52,024 nt of DNA, taken from contig JAIQZU010000028.1 in assembly GCA_021776915.1 (NCBI GenBank), forward strand, positions 1 through 52,024, in the 5' to 3' direction. Source of the DNA: Candidatus Scalindua sp. GTDB taxonomy: Bacteria > Planctomycetota > Brocadiia > Brocadiales > Scalinduaceae. Within the stretch, counting starts at the first letter, position 1; every line of letters starts with the position of its first letter. The notes under the pieces were generated by a model that saw only the letters and a program-made list of their open reading frames with translations, was not told where the DNA came from and did no database searches. Made by a program: the position numbers and the translations under genes. Of this stretch, positions 6,963 to 46,987 are shown in pieces.

Positions 6963-8729
6963 TTAATTATCAATTCTTTTCATATTAACTGTATTATGTG
7001 TCAGGCCAAGAACAATGGATAATAAAAGGGCATTTGCCGGAATATGCAGATTAAAATCAGTAAGACTGTGTGCAAGGATGGCAATTACACTACAAACTCC
7101 ACCCAGGGCAACACCTTTTGCATAATGATGCCTCCTCTCCCACCACCTCATCAATGTTTTCCAGAAAAACATTATAAAACCGCTCAAGACTATTACAAAC
7201 CCTGCCAGGCCGCTATCTGATACCAATTCCAGGTAATCATTGTGTGCATGATCATAGTACAACTGACTTTGCAAGGTCTTGTACCCCGGATAAATATATT
7301 GAAAGGTACCAATACCTGTTCCAAATACAGGAAAGTCTTTAGCCATGTTGATAGTGTTCTCATAAACCTCGTACCTTGTTGGCGAAGAAAGATCTGACAT
7401 TCTGTTTAAGATTGGATCAAGCCCCAGCCACATCAGGAATACGAAAGTGATGACTATGACTGACACTATTATCCTCCATCCCCTGCCCATAGCGCCCTTT
7501 AATCTGGTAAATCCAACGAGAGTACAGAAAGCAACAACAGCTACAGCAAAAGACATAATCCCGCCACGGGAGAGAGAGAGGAAAAGGGCTGATATCATAA
7601 TTACAATTACAAAGACTAATAATAGATTAGCAAAAAAGTGAGACTGAAACCTTGCTGCAATGGAGCGTCTACCTGTGTTCTTAAAAAATGCAACACTTGC
7701 AAATCTGGAAACCAGCAGACCTAACGCAACCGGTATCACCATACCCAAATAGCCCGCAAAATGATTACGGTTTACGTATGGCCCGAAATGTGTAGCATAA
7801 GAAGCATTCCTTACCCAGTATATGTCTTTAGTACCAGTAAGCTTTTGAAGGATGCCAAGAAGAGAAACACAAAAACCCACACTTATTATTAAGACGACAA
7901 TACGGTTGATTCTCATACCGGGCGTATTCGTTATAAGAAAAAACATACCGATGTAAGCAAGTATCTTGAAGAACTCAGTTTTAGTAGCATAAGGGTATAT
8001 GCTGATGGGACGACAGGTTTGGATTTCGGATTTCGGATTGCGGATTGCGGATACATCTAAGACACTGGTACGAATAGGTTGTGAGGTTTGGAGTTGGGAT
8101 GGTGGATTGTTGATTGTTGATTGCAGATTTCTGTTTTCGGATTGGAGATTTATGGTTGACGATTGATGATTTGAGTTTTCTAAGATTTGATCAGTTGAAT
8201 GTAGATTGTCGATTTCAGATTGCGGATTTCGGATTGCAGATTTCATATGAACAGACTTATCTGCCGGCCATCCGGGCCCAGATGGAATATGCTTCTCATT
8301 CCATGGGGCAAGTAATGTGAACTTATACAAATCATAAGTATTAGGACTAAGGGACTTGAGGATTCCTGACGGCAACGGGATTAGCTGGAAAACGACAAGA
8401 CCGATAAATAACACTATCGGGATATTCAAGGGGGTTTTCACAAGACTGGAACGATTGCAATCAGATTGCGGATTGCGGCCTGCCCTGGCCTGCCCAAGCG
8501 AAGACTTGGTCTTGGCCGGGGTGCGTTCCGCACTGCGGTCTGGGCCAGGGATTGCGGATTGCGGATTGAAAATAGTAATGATTTGTTTAAACGCCCAAAT
8601 CATTACTAAAAAACATATTGTGAGCTCCATTGTGGAATATGCCCATGGATGGACAGAACCAAAGGCGAGAGGCGTGAACACAATTAAAAGTATTACTCCA
8701 TATTCGATTATACGGTCAAAAACAATCAT
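6963..8729 (-). CDS. O-antigen ligase/polymerase-like membrane protein (Wzy/WaaL family) with repeat insertions
   Basis: This roughly 590-residue protein has many hydrophobic helices and the Wzy_C signature near its C-terminus (GTGIGTFQYIYPGY, then DHAHNDYLELVSDSGLAGF). It would polymerise or ligate lipid-linked sugar repeat units at the periplasmic face of the inner membrane. Two soluble stretches are low-complexity insertions encoded by tandem GGATTGCGGATTTCGG-like DNA: residues about 57-97 (8445-8567) and 163-243 (8007-8249), rich in NPQS, NLQS and NPKSE. They lie in loops between membrane segments and keep the frame open. Start: the ATG at 8729 fits a membrane start; an ATG at 8735 is also in frame. 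Confidence 0.83.
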   Translation of the reverse strand: MIVFDRIIEYGVILLIVFTPLAFGSVHPWAYSTMELTICFLVMIWAFKQIITIFNPQSAIPGPDRSAERTPAKTKSSLGQARAGRNPQSDCNRSSLVKTPLNIPIVLFIGLVVFQLIPLPSGILKSLSPNTYDLYKFTLLAPWNEKHIPSGPGWPADKSVHMKSAIRNPQSEIDNLHSTDQILENSNHQSSTINLQSENRNLQSTINNPPSQLQTSQPIRTSVLDVSAIRNPKSEIQTCRPISIYPYATKTEFFKILAYIGMFFLITNTPGMRINRIVVLIISVGFCVSLLGILQKLTGTKDIYWVRNASYATHFGPYVNRNHFAGYLGMVIPVALGLLVSRFASVAFFKNTGRRSIAARFQSHFFANLLLVFVIVIMISALFLSLSRGGIMSFAVAVVAFCTLVGFTRLKGAMGRGWRIIVSVIVITFVFLMWLGLDPILNRMSDLSSPTRYEVYENTINMAKDFPVFGTGIGTFQYIYPGYKTLQSQLYYDHAHNDYLELVSDSGLAGFVIVLSGFIMFFWKTLMRWWERRHHYAKGVALGGVCSVIAILAHSLTDFNLHIPANALLLSIVLGLTHNTVNMKRIDN

Positions 8730-8784
8730 GGTCATTTAACCCGCCAAGGCGGGTTGTCAAAGTTTCACCCCAAAAACTAAAAGC

Positions 8785-15039: not shown

Positions 15040-15585
15040 TACGTTTTTAAGAGTAGTATAGCCTTTTAAGCCTTTAGTATTTTGTTTTAACGCAGAGGAC
15101 GCAGAAGGGTATAAAGGCAGATGTATAATACGAAGGACGTTATACATTATGCATTCCTGCTGTTTCAATCTTGCAAAGCAGAGCTTAGCTCTGCAGGTTC
15201 AAGTCAGGTCGCTATCACGACAAAATTCCTCGACTTCGCTCGGAATGACGTCACACTGAGCGGAGTCGAAGTGTTATCATCATTGAAATTCCTATGCACG
15301 AACCTAAACGTTTCGGTTCAGGCTACAAGCCTGAACCAACATAAATCAGCTATGTAGGTTAAATATAGTATGGGTGGATGCATTCCTGAATTGTTGTAAT
15401 ACGACTATATTAGCCGTAAATATGGAGTGCATCATCCGTGATGATGCGTATTAAAGCAGTAACACGGTCACTGCATTCCATATTAACAACCCTGTACAAC
15501 AATTTGGGAATGTTCTCTTAAATGTTTGTTAACTACGAAAACAGTTGAATGGATGACATAACTGCTGATAATTATGGCGGGGATT
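15040..15585. repeat. Gene-free repeat-rich gap
   Basis: No real gene is seen in these 546 bases; the open frame across 15121-15357 is repeat sequence. Contents in order: a small palindrome (GCAGAGCT-T-AGCTCTGC) at about 15177-15193; copy A of the 44-base palindromic element at 15228-15271; a 10-bp perfect stem (GGTTCAGGCT-ACA) at 15315-15337; and a larger imperfect palindrome at 15419-15484 with AATATGGAGTGCA facing TGCATTCCATATT. Confidence 0.7.
15228..15271 (+). repeat. Palindromic element, copy A (intergenic)
   Basis: This is an inverted repeat with a 12-base loop containing GACGTCAC. The right arm CTGAGCGGAGTCGAAG is identical to that of the copy inside the mnmE paralogue at 46168-46211; the left arm has changes. 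Flanking bases also match (CTATCACGACAA before; GTGTTATCA-CATTGAAATTCC after), so the mobile unit is about 90-100 bases. Confidence 0.85.
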
Positions 15586-18608: not shown

Positions 18609-18915
18609 ATATTTTCATATAGTAATTGTTGAAGCTAAATTGTTCAAGTTATAAATCAGCTCACTATCTCTACAAAAACTATCCTTCGACTCCGCTCAGG
18701 ATGACGTCACACTGAGCGAAGTCGAAGTGTCACCAACATTGAAATTCCTATGCATTAAATTATTTCACTTCCCACCAAAAAAACATGTCGCCCGCCCGTT
18801 CCGGTACCCGCCCGAATGACATCACTCAGGCGGGCGGACGGGGACAGGCGTCTCGCTGATTTATTATTAAAAGTTGACAATAATTGCTTCAGCAAGTATA
18901 TTCAGAAACTGATGA
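18609..18915. repeat. Repeat-bearing gap before tRNA-Arg
   Basis: This 307-base gap contains palindromic element copy B (18684-18727) and a G+C-rich block at about 18789-18845 built from CCCGCCCG and CGGGCGG units that can pair with each other. Neither belongs to a gene. The G+C-rich block stands out sharply from the AT-rich surroundings and resembles the CCTGCC/GGCAGG palindromes elsewhere. Confidence 0.6.
18684..18727 (+). repeat. Palindromic element, copy B (intergenic)
   Basis: Left arm CTTCGACTCCGCTCAG, loop GATGACGTCACA, right arm CTGAGCGAAGTCGAAG (one mismatch). The flanks (AACTATC before; CAACATTGAAATTCCTATGC and ATTAAATT after) match the copy inside the mnmE paralogue closely. Confidence 0.88.
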
Positions 18916-27454: not shown

Positions 27455-28888
27455 TTATTTTCCAATACAGAACTCTGAAAATATTCTGTCTAAAATATCA
27501 TCTGTTAACACCTCCCCGGTAACCTCACCAATAGTATCTAACGCCTTTCTCAAATCTATCGCCATAAGCTCGTAACCTGTTTCTTCATTTAATGAATCTG
27601 AAGTTTGCTCTAAAATATCAAGCGCCCTGCCGATCACAACTCTCTGCCTCATTGTAAAAACCACATCTGACGCAGAAATATCAATGCTATTATCAAAAAC
27701 ACTGGAGACCATTGTCTTTCTTAATTTATCCAGTCCATCACCGGTAAGCATAGATGTTTTGACTACCGGAAAGGTCTTCATACTTGAGGAAATATCTTCA
27801 TAACAAGTCTTTTGTTGCAGGTCAATTTTATTAATCACTATTATCTTGCTTCTTGTAGTTATAGAATCAAAGAACTTTATCTGCTCACAAGAGAGATTCA
27901 TGCAACCGTCTATAACAAATATAACAATTTGGGCAGTATCTATAGAACCGTAAGTTCTTTGCTCAATTACAGACTCCAGGTCTCCTTTTCCATAAGCAAT
28001 TCCTGCAGTATCTATAATCCGGAAATTTATTCCTTCTAAATCCACGTCAGCTTCCAGCGTGTCTCTGGTCGTACCACTAACATGTGTTACTATTGCCCTT
28101 GAACGTTTTAATAGTTTATTAAACAAGCTTGACTTGCCGGCATTTGGCCAGCCAACTAAAACAGTTTTTACACCATAATGAGATATTCTCGGCTTTTGTC
28201 CACTTCCTGCGACTATGTATAATTTCCCGATTATATGCTTAAGTTGTTTCTTTATTTCATCAAGCGTAATTAATTCAATGTCTTGATCGAGGAAATCAAT
28301 AGCAGCCTCTATCCCGGCGCAGAGTTTCACCAATTCATCCTGTATGTTATTCATACACTCGGTCAACCTTCCTTTCAGATTCGAAACAGCCATCAACAAC
28401 TCAGAATCTGTCTGGGAACGTATTATGTGTAGTACCGATTCCGCTTCTGCAAGACTTATTCTTCCATTAAGGAATGCTCTTTTGGTGAATTCTCCCGGTT
28501 CTGCAATCCGAATGCCCTTTACAGCTTCTTCACCATTTTCCCTGCAAGCGCTATCGCTTCCAGACGAAAGCAGTGTATCCATGAGCATTTCAAGCAGTGG
28601 AGGCGAACCAAAGGTATGGATTTCTATAATATCTTCCCTGGTGTATGAATTTGGAGACTTCATGATGTAAATACAGGCGGGGATCCTGATCTTTTCACTT
28701 TCAAGATAAAGGTGGCCCTGGCAGGAACTGAAACCTTTCTCATGCGTAATCTTTTCACCGTCACCAGGCATAAAGATACTCACCATACAGTCAAATACAT
28801 CTTTGCCGCAAAGCCTGATAATAGCCCTGAGAGACCTGCCGGATGGCGTGGAGATTGCTAGTATGCTGTCGTTAAGACTGAAGAACAT
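27455..28888 (-). CDS. mnmE: tRNA modification GTPase MnmE
   Basis: This 477-residue protein is a complete MnmE: N-terminal tetrahydrofolate-binding domain (ILAISTPSGRSLRAIIRLCG, later AEPGEFTKRAFLNGRISLAEAE), helical domain and G domain with P-loop GWPNAGKSS, TTRD, DTAG and NKID. The C-terminal helix GEVLTDDILDRIFSEFCIGK carries the essential Cys. With MnmG it installs the (carboxy)methylaminomethyl group at wobble uridine 34. It lies 30 bases after yidC, the common yidC-mnmE order. A second, degenerate paralogue is at 45590. Confidence 0.97.
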   Translation of the reverse strand: MFFSLNDSILAISTPSGRSLRAIIRLCGKDVFDCMVSIFMPGDGEKITHEKGFSSCQGHLYLESEKIRIPACIYIMKSPNSYTREDIIEIHTFGSPPLLEMLMDTLLSSGSDSACRENGEEAVKGIRIAEPGEFTKRAFLNGRISLAEAESVLHIIRSQTDSELLMAVSNLKGRLTECMNNIQDELVKLCAGIEAAIDFLDQDIELITLDEIKKQLKHIIGKLYIVAGSGQKPRISHYGVKTVLVGWPNAGKSSLFNKLLKRSRAIVTHVSGTTRDTLEADVDLEGINFRIIDTAGIAYGKGDLESVIEQRTYGSIDTAQIVIFVIDGCMNLSCEQIKFFDSITTRSKIIVINKIDLQQKTCYEDISSSMKTFPVVKTSMLTGDGLDKLRKTMVSSVFDNSIDISASDVVFTMRQRVVIGRALDILEQTSDSLNEETGYELMAIDLRKALDTIGEVTGEVLTDDILDRIFSEFCIGK

Positions 28889-45589: not shown

Positions 45590-46987
45590 ATGAAAAAAAA
45601 GACAATTGCATCTATTACTACGCCTATTGGTGAAGGAGGTATCGGCGTGATACAGGTATCAGGGCCGGACTCACTGAGAATCGTAAACACGGTATTCAAG
45701 GGAAAGAAACTGAAAGACTTGAGGAATGCTGAGTCAAAGAGAATTTACTACGGCGATATTTGTTTAAACGGTACAGCCGTTGACGAGGTTATTGTAAATG
45801 TACTGAGAGAAAAAGACAGTTTTACCGGAGAAGATTTAGTTGAGGTTAATTGTCATGGCGGCATCCGGGCAGTAAAGAAGACGCTTGAGTGTGTGGTAGC
45901 CGCAGGAGCAAAGGAAGTCCATTGGAAAGAACTGGCCAATCGTTCTCTCACAAACAATAAAATTGACCTTATTCAGGAAGAGGCTCTGCTGGAAATACCC
46001 AAGGCAAAAACAAAATTATGTGTTAAAGTCCTCCTCGACCAATATAACGGTGCATTGTCTTCCTTTATACAAAAAATCATTGAAGAGGTAGAATATTGCG
46101 AAAACGCCAAAGCACCTGTAGAACATATAAACGGTAAGTCAGGGCACTATCACGACAAGAAACTATCCTTCGACTCCGCTCAGGATGACGTCACACTGAG
46201 CGGAGTCGAAGTGTTATCAACATTAAAATCCCTATCCATTAAATTAAGAAAACTACTGGCAACAGCAGTCTTCGGCTGTGCAATCACTACGCCACAAAAA
46301 CTGATTATTACCGGCAAACCCAACGCAGGCAAATCTACGTTAATTAACGCACTCTTGAAGGAAGACAGATCAATCACTCACAAAGAACCGGGAACGACAA
46401 GAGACGCCGTTGACGAATTGATTTCAATCAATGGTATGCCATTCACAATAATAGATACCGCCGGTATCAGAGAAACAGATCACGAAGTAGAAAGGCTCGG
46501 TGTCCAGGAAAGCAAAAAACAGCTAAGGCAGGCAGATAAAATAATCATTGTGTTCGACAATTCTAAACCTGCAGAAAGAGAAGACAACGAGTTGATAGAG
46601 TTTATTGAAAAACTTGATCTGCATAAAGCAGACAAATCCCACAAGGTATCCATCTTTCCCGTAATAAACAAGGCAGACCTGCCGTGTAAACTAAACCTGT
46701 CAGCACTTATTGGAGATACGTTTAAACCGATATGTCAGATATCCGCCTTGAATGGCGACGGCATTTCAACGCTTGAAGAAAATCTGATTTTCGAGTTTAA
46801 GGAGTTTATAAAATATACACCTGAAAGACCCATAATCTTCACCAGACGGCAGCAGGAATTTTTATCTAAAGCCTTATACTCCTCTGAACAATGTATTAAA
46901 CCGGCTGAGGAGACAAAGAATGATTCGAATCTTTTAAATGATATAAAGCAAAATCTCCTTGACTGTATTGTCGGTTCAATCTTGTAG
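45590..46987 (+). CDS. Divergent MnmE paralogue carrying a palindromic-element insertion
   Basis: This 465-residue protein has a TrmE N-terminal domain (ITTPIGEGGIGVIQVSGPDSL, FTGEDLVEVNCHGG), a helical region and a G domain with P-loop GKPNAGKST, TTRD, DTAG and NKAD. It lacks the conserved C-terminal end with the Cys (FCIGK in the 27455 gene), ending LLDCIVGSIL, and the GEITGE/TDDILD helix is missing. tRNA modification is therefore doubtful. Residues about 184-216 are coded by a dispersed repeat, including the perfect palindrome at 46168-46211, placed just before the G domain with no frame break. Confidence 0.85.
   Translation: MKKKTIASITTPIGEGGIGVIQVSGPDSLRIVNTVFKGKKLKDLRNAESKRIYYGDICLNGTAVDEVIVNVLREKDSFTGEDLVEVNCHGGIRAVKKTLECVVAAGAKEVHWKELANRSLTNNKIDLIQEEALLEIPKAKTKLCVKVLLDQYNGALSSFIQKIIEEVEYCENAKAPVEHINGKSGHYHDKKLSFDSAQDDVTLSGVEVLSTLKSLSIKLRKLLATAVFGCAITTPQKLIITGKPNAGKSTLINALLKEDRSITHKEPGTTRDAVDELISINGMPFTIIDTAGIRETDHEVERLGVQESKKQLRQADKIIIVFDNSKPAEREDNELIEFIEKLDLHKADKSHKVSIFPVINKADLPCKLNLSALIGDTFKPICQISALNGDGISTLEENLIFEFKEFIKYTPERPIIFTRRQQEFLSKALYSSEQCIKPAEETKNDSNLLNDIKQNLLDCIVGSIL
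46168..46211 (+). repeat. Palindromic element, copy C, in frame inside a gene
   Basis: Perfect 16-base arms CTTCGACTCCGCTCAG and CTGAGCGGAGTCGAAG around loop GATGACGTCACA. The whole repeat spans about 46145-46242 and encodes FDSAQDDVTLSGVEVLS and flanking residues of the MnmE paralogue. Confidence 0.92.

Follow-up and report, generated by a model that had tools for sequence, protein, structure and literature searches.

A 105-bp palindromic repeat lies in frame within an MnmE-like GTPase gene of Candidatus Scalindua

CGTC-tagged REPs have been described as short hairpins with an 8-9 bp stem (the first two pairs being AT), a loop of 4-5 nt, and a CCA-type tail; they occur as head-to-head dimers, and are sometimes found in frame in ORFs, including tRNA-modification genes (PMC3733652). 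In-frame REPs in ORFs have been published for several bacteria. Two families of Rickettsia palindromic elements (RPE), RPE-4 and RPE-6, were assigned to the CGTC-tagged REP superfamily (PMC3733652). In Rickettsia, nearly half of the elements are genic, among three RPE families (PMC10969869), and one study found the sites of genic RPEs to be conserved among orthologues (PMC3767692). A search of a literature collection for repeats of Scalindua returned nothing relevant. We herein describe a palindromic unit that is read through in a GTPase gene of this genus. The window, i.e., the whole stretch of DNA analyzed (52,024 nucleotides), represents contig C21 in a 3.79-Mb draft genome (G000), and all or nearly all of the genomes compared were MAGs. 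The features of the window are as follows.

45590..46987, + strand: MnmE/TrmE-like GTPase gene, 465 aa, with TrmE_N, MMR_HSR1, and MnmE_helical (domain matches); orthologues in most congeners
27455-28888, - strand: better-scoring MnmE gene (MnmE equivalog score)
46136..46240, + strand: net insertion of a 105-bp unit, with 35 codons for residues 183-217 (195 bp at empty sites vs 300 bp between the same anchors)
46136..46142, + strand: left end AAGTCAG (consensus AAGTTAG), supplied by the element (alignment of copies; its role was demonstrated at an intergenic locus that is empty in four congeners)
46168..46211, + strand: palindrome with 16-bp arms and a 12-nt loop, GATGACGTCACA (fold; comparison with PMC3733652)
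46212..46240, + strand: right arm of the unit, consensus TGTTATCAACATTGAAATTCCTATGCATT (alignment of copies)
46241..46246, + strand: AAATTA, the host's own target, kept to the right of the insert (identical in the unfilled alleles of G002, G004, and G014)
18652..18762, + strand: intergenic full-length copy (flanks match the genic copy)
15201..15306, + strand: intergenic copy of a subfamily with a CCTCGAC..CTCGGAATGAC left half (flank-matching copy at about 15201-15298)

The MnmE-like protein scored 244, just below the MnmE equivalog cut-off of 252.6. The palindrome in its gene consists of two perfect 16-base arms (46168-46183 and 46196-46211) separated by a 12-base loop (46184-46195), and its DNA fold was far more stable than those of shuffled sequences (z = -6.2); since the shuffle expectation was 0.00, chance was excluded. 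An earlier sequence-only reading of this DNA had attributed the same perfect palindrome, with matching flanks, to intergenic positions 18684 and 15228: the flanks did match, but the arms at both positions contained mismatches. The same reading had recognized a real element at 46145-46242 (~95 bases), but had drawn it too short: the genic copy is alignable over 111 bp (46136-46246) to the 112-bp consensus obtained from an alignment of the G000 copies (CAAGTTAGGTCGCTATCGCGACAAAAGACTATCCTTCGACTCCGCTCAGGATGACGTCACACTGAGCGGAGTCGAAGTGTTATCAACATTGAAATTCCTATGCATTAAATTA), and the net insertion is 105 bp. Only one of the six reading frames of this consensus was open throughout, and this was the frame used in the MnmE-like gene. 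The insert is translated in frame and without a stop codon within the 465-aa ORF, as had been proposed, and encodes residues 183-217 (KSGHYHDKKLSFDSAQDDVTLSGVEVLSTLKSLSI), i.e., 35 residues rather than the 15 originally given.

In the unit, two REP-like hairpins tagged with CGTC stand head to head between constant ends, and this inverted-pair layout was found in all full-length copies. It resembles the CGTC-tagged REP dimers (Di Nocera et al. 2013, PMC3733652) in the CGTC motif with which each half hairpin ends on its inner side, in the inverted pairing, in a mostly intergenic distribution with occasional in-frame ORF copies, and in having no linked transposase gene. On the other hand, each half hairpin folded with 5+2 pairs (and a 4-nt loop) instead of 8-9 pairs, AT started the left half only, and the halves terminated in GGATAG and GTGTTA, with no CCA-type tail. 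Furthermore, the two tags overlap in GACGTC (46187-46192; CGTC on both strands), and the dimer is enclosed in a constant frame of ~110 bp with its own target rule. Since the tag and dimer layout are common to both while stem length and tail depart, the Scalindua element appears, by its sequence, to be REP-like and not a strict member of the CGTC-tagged REPs. Its earlier description as an independently evolved analogue of the Rickettsia elements became doubtful, because the core resembles a dimer of the very superfamily to which RPE-4 and RPE-6 were assigned. An integron attC site, for which the GTTRRRY-like GTTAGGT at the left end was considered, was rejected by reasoning from the sequence because the other end had no complementary RYYYAAC arm.

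Hairpins of this type were found 58 times in G000 (vs 0 for a reversed control pattern), and full-length units numbered about 40-42, at ~40 dispersed loci with unrelated flanks. The repeat was present in 13 of 13 Scalindua congeners, with up to 97% identity over 112 bp, while a search of 62 genomes of the order revealed only partial or weak matches, and no full-length unit, outside the genus. These genome-wide copies agreed with the proposal of a dispersed mobile palindromic element. They did not bear out the accompanying view that the element is given to invading genes as RPEs are: of about 42 full-length copies examined in G000, a single one sits in a long ORF (the MnmE-like gene). Genic insertion in Scalindua is the exception, not the rule, and in-frame insertion within a conserved ORF was found in one orthologous gene of three Scalindua species. 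The element is like the Rickettsia palindromic elements in being a ~100-150 bp palindromic repeat read through in frame within conserved genes, in its insertion in exposed or disordered loops, and in the existence of orthologues with and without the repeat, but differs in this low genic share, as well as in organism, ends, and target.

Other long-frame candidates for genic copies in the genus were rejected: they lay upstream of likely starts, were N-terminal, or fell in spurious-looking ORFs. A 369-codon frame starts with MKF followed in frame by a long-loop copy (G000:C77:412-543), which lies directly before a signal-peptide-like segment; whether it is an N-terminal insertion is doubtful, the alternative being a leader upstream of a later start. 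At G008:C149:24998-25109 (L111), a HIT-family-like gene begins immediately next to the element, and its usual start region directly follows the repeat. The window also contains a second repeat-derived coding segment: a 590-aa membrane protein (6963-8735, - strand; O-antigen-ligase-family-like by eye) with repeats at 8022-8567 contains, at about residues 160-235, an in-frame stretch of SAIRNPQSEI-type peptides that originates from GATTTCGGATTGCGGATT repeats, and the matches of congener frames (514-533 aa) skip this stretch.

The distance between the anchors on both sides of the insertion was exactly 195 bp in G001, G002, G004, G005, G010, G012, G013, and G014, in comparison with 300 bp in the window, from which a net gain of 105 bp (35 codons) follows. 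This clean empty site, found in seven congeners and in the other genera of the family (two other genera in the anchor comparison), provided the comparison with insertion-free orthologues that the sequence-only reading had called for, and no orthologue with the same protein segment but without the DNA repeat was found. G015 and G016 were also empty (198 and 192 bp between anchors, respectively), as was G011 as far as its broken contigs reveal, while the search yielded no MnmE-like orthologue from G003, G006, and G007. G008 and G009 carry the element at the same codon and in the same orientation and frame as G000, with length differences divisible by three: the loop is 24 bp longer in G008, and 30 bp are missing at the left in G009. 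Since we are dealing with MAGs, and assemblies break at repeats, a misassembly might have joined the repeat to the gene, and a second contig of G012 with an MnmE-like N-terminus ends exactly at the site; nevertheless, the same codon, an open frame, and allele-specific substitutions recur in three assemblies of different species, so that a chimera is hardly credible. G012 carries two N-terminal versions of the gene, one at the end of C49 (L130) and the other in C15, perhaps an allele mixture; the contig that stops at the insertion site does so at CATATCAACGACCA.

The three filled alleles do not form one clade: this topology was rejected by an AU test (p = 1.8e-13) on a tree inferred without the insert columns. 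This result would be expected if each allele had arisen by its own insertion at a target hot spot, and not by one common event, and other observations point in the same direction: the G008 copy belongs to the long-loop subfamily, and those of G000 and G009 to the short-loop subfamily; a preferred target has been demonstrated (see below); and the synonymous divergence of the insert was low relative to that of the remaining gene, both between G000 and G008 (6/24 vs 154/286, p = 0.01) and between G000 and G009 (3/20 vs 164/281, p = 0.0002), which does not fit simple vertical descent. On the other hand, the G000 and G008 genic copies have five non-consensus states in common (positions 6, 12, 18, 27, and 96) and are mutual best matches on shared derived states among 93 copies, no other copy sharing more than four such states with either of them, although five or more shared states were also observed in 15 of 990 comparable pairs of other copies. 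Furthermore, the state at position 98 is common to G008 and G009. Separate insertions are a serious possibility, to which we give somewhat over a third of our belief. In several segments, the N-terminal part of the G012 gene had 92-94% identity to that of G000, equaling or exceeding the identity of the sister species, and identity then dropped, from which the MnmE-like gene appears to recombine between species. We weakly favor one insertion, spread and/or removed by recombination and/or precise excision, over repeated hits as the origin of the patchy presence in three non-sister congeners.

The target was resolved at an intergenic copy (G000:C33:83257, locus L015), for which four congeners (G001, G002, G005, and G011) retain an empty CAAATTAG site (CAATCTTAACAAATTAGTTTTC-like). 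The filled locus has the element-type CAAGTTAG at the left, the unit, and the host CAAATTAG kept at the right, with a net gain of 105 bp. Insertion, thus, takes place next to a CAARTTAG-like target, and the left end, CAAGTTAG, is supplied by the element itself. A true target-site duplication was rejected: the left copy has the G of the element, and the right copy matches the empty site. Tandem units are joined head to tail at CAAGTTA. Such arrays, together with the swapping of central palindromes between common ends and the failure to identify a partner transposase in G000, might be explained by homologous recombination and gene conversion among repeats without any transposition; however, a clean single-copy insertion with fixed borders, the site of which is unoccupied in four relatives, and the ~40 dispersed loci with unrelated flanks, make spread by recombination alone unlikely.

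Among the 81 right ends examined, 49 carried the palindrome of this type and 24 carried four other palindrome types between the same ends; all were short units, and no larger autonomous element with the same right end was found. Examples of other central palindromes between the same outer ends in G000 are L088, L090, L092, L096, L103, and L135, with GTAGGGGCG..CGCCCCTAC, GTCGGG..CCCGCCGAC, GGTAGGAGCC..GGCTCCTACC, and TGTAGCCGCA..TGCGGCTACCA as alternatives. Several of these start with GTAG and end with CTAC, resembling interchangeable REP-like cargo in one frame. A CCCCGGACAAAAAACGCCGAGGACTTT-like sequence has four copies in the window (19489, 38256, 43564, and 47881), and is also found within the loop of the GTAGGGGCG palindrome unit of L090.

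The features of the unit recall non-autonomous elements derived from IS200/IS605 and the REP/RAYT systems: a fixed short target is kept on one side and a matching motif occurs at the opposite tip, the target is not truly duplicated, hairpins lie close to the ends, and units can be arranged in tandem. These systems differ in that no transposase with the ends of the Scalindua element was found in the draft G000. Y1_Tnp matches at ten loci of this genome represent candidate enzymes; none of the ten Y1 transposase genes was flanked by the element ends or the hairpin type, and a RAYT flanked by these hairpins was likewise not found in G000. A unit with another cargo is located ~1.3 kb from one Y1 transposase gene. 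The most likely mechanism is that a Y1 (HUH) transposase, either IS200/IS605- or RAYT-like, moves the unit in trans; such an enzyme would account for integration next to a fixed short sequence, for the hairpins and head-to-tail arrays, for precise loss, and for the fact that the target is not really duplicated. If read on the bottom strand, IS200/IS605-type movement would have CTAAYTTG as its target, and would fit the ends, the kept target, the matching motif at the other tip, the tandem joining, and the clean empty sites. The unit would have integrated in the MnmE-like gene at a CAARTTA-like target; its length of 105 bp is divisible by three and one of its six frames is open throughout, so that an insertion in the right phase and orientation makes a loop of the helical domain 35 residues longer and does not kill the gene. 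Alongside the repeat family, unit borders, empty sites, reading frame, and purifying selection on the host gene, all directly observed, we consider it probable that the insert represents a small non-autonomous element, mobile in Scalindua and moved in trans probably by a Y1 enzyme, one copy of which landed in the MnmE-like gene.

An AlphaFold2 model of the MnmE-like protein was of moderate quality (mean pLDDT of 69 and pTM of 0.54). In this model, the insert lies in a low-confidence loop (175-202) between two helices, and its C-terminal part continues into a helix (203-223). The insert is, thus, predicted to lie within the helical domain, in a disordered loop that closely precedes the G domain, the location expected from the sequence alone, and a surface position is reasonable. 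Outside the insert, dN/dS was 0.12-0.21, and, therefore, the gene is under purifying selection and is not a pseudogene, in contrast to what would be expected if genic copies were confined to decaying frames. An adaptive role of the 35-residue peptide as a functional extension of the GTPase might be suggested by the left arm, in which G000 and G008 differ by four synonymous codons and one replacement codon, as if GHYHDKK were conserved. However, these few sites were selected post hoc, 10 of these codons are missing from G009, dN/dS of its remaining insert against G000 was near 1, and the insert is predicted to be disordered; we regard such a role as very unlikely.

In-frame palindromic insertion has mainly been known from Rickettsia and a few other bacteria, and is found here in a free-living, slow-growing marine anammox lineage. 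Thirteen species of this lineage have been sampled, one gene is available in both filled and empty alleles, the empty sites are resolved, and the unit is defined, which makes the arrival, tolerance, and loss of such insertions testable. The common frame, in which REP dimers are exchangeable, is also relevant to the mobility of REPs. As a tentative generalization, to which we would give slightly less than even chances, the genus may harbor small mobile frames (ends CAAGTTAG and TTGAAATTCCTATGCATYAARTTA; target CAARTTAG) with exchangeable REP dimers of at least five kinds (CGTC- and GTAG-type), of which the 112-bp form adds exactly 35 codons, and its clean coming and going among species in the MnmE-like gene would make it a natural on/off segment.
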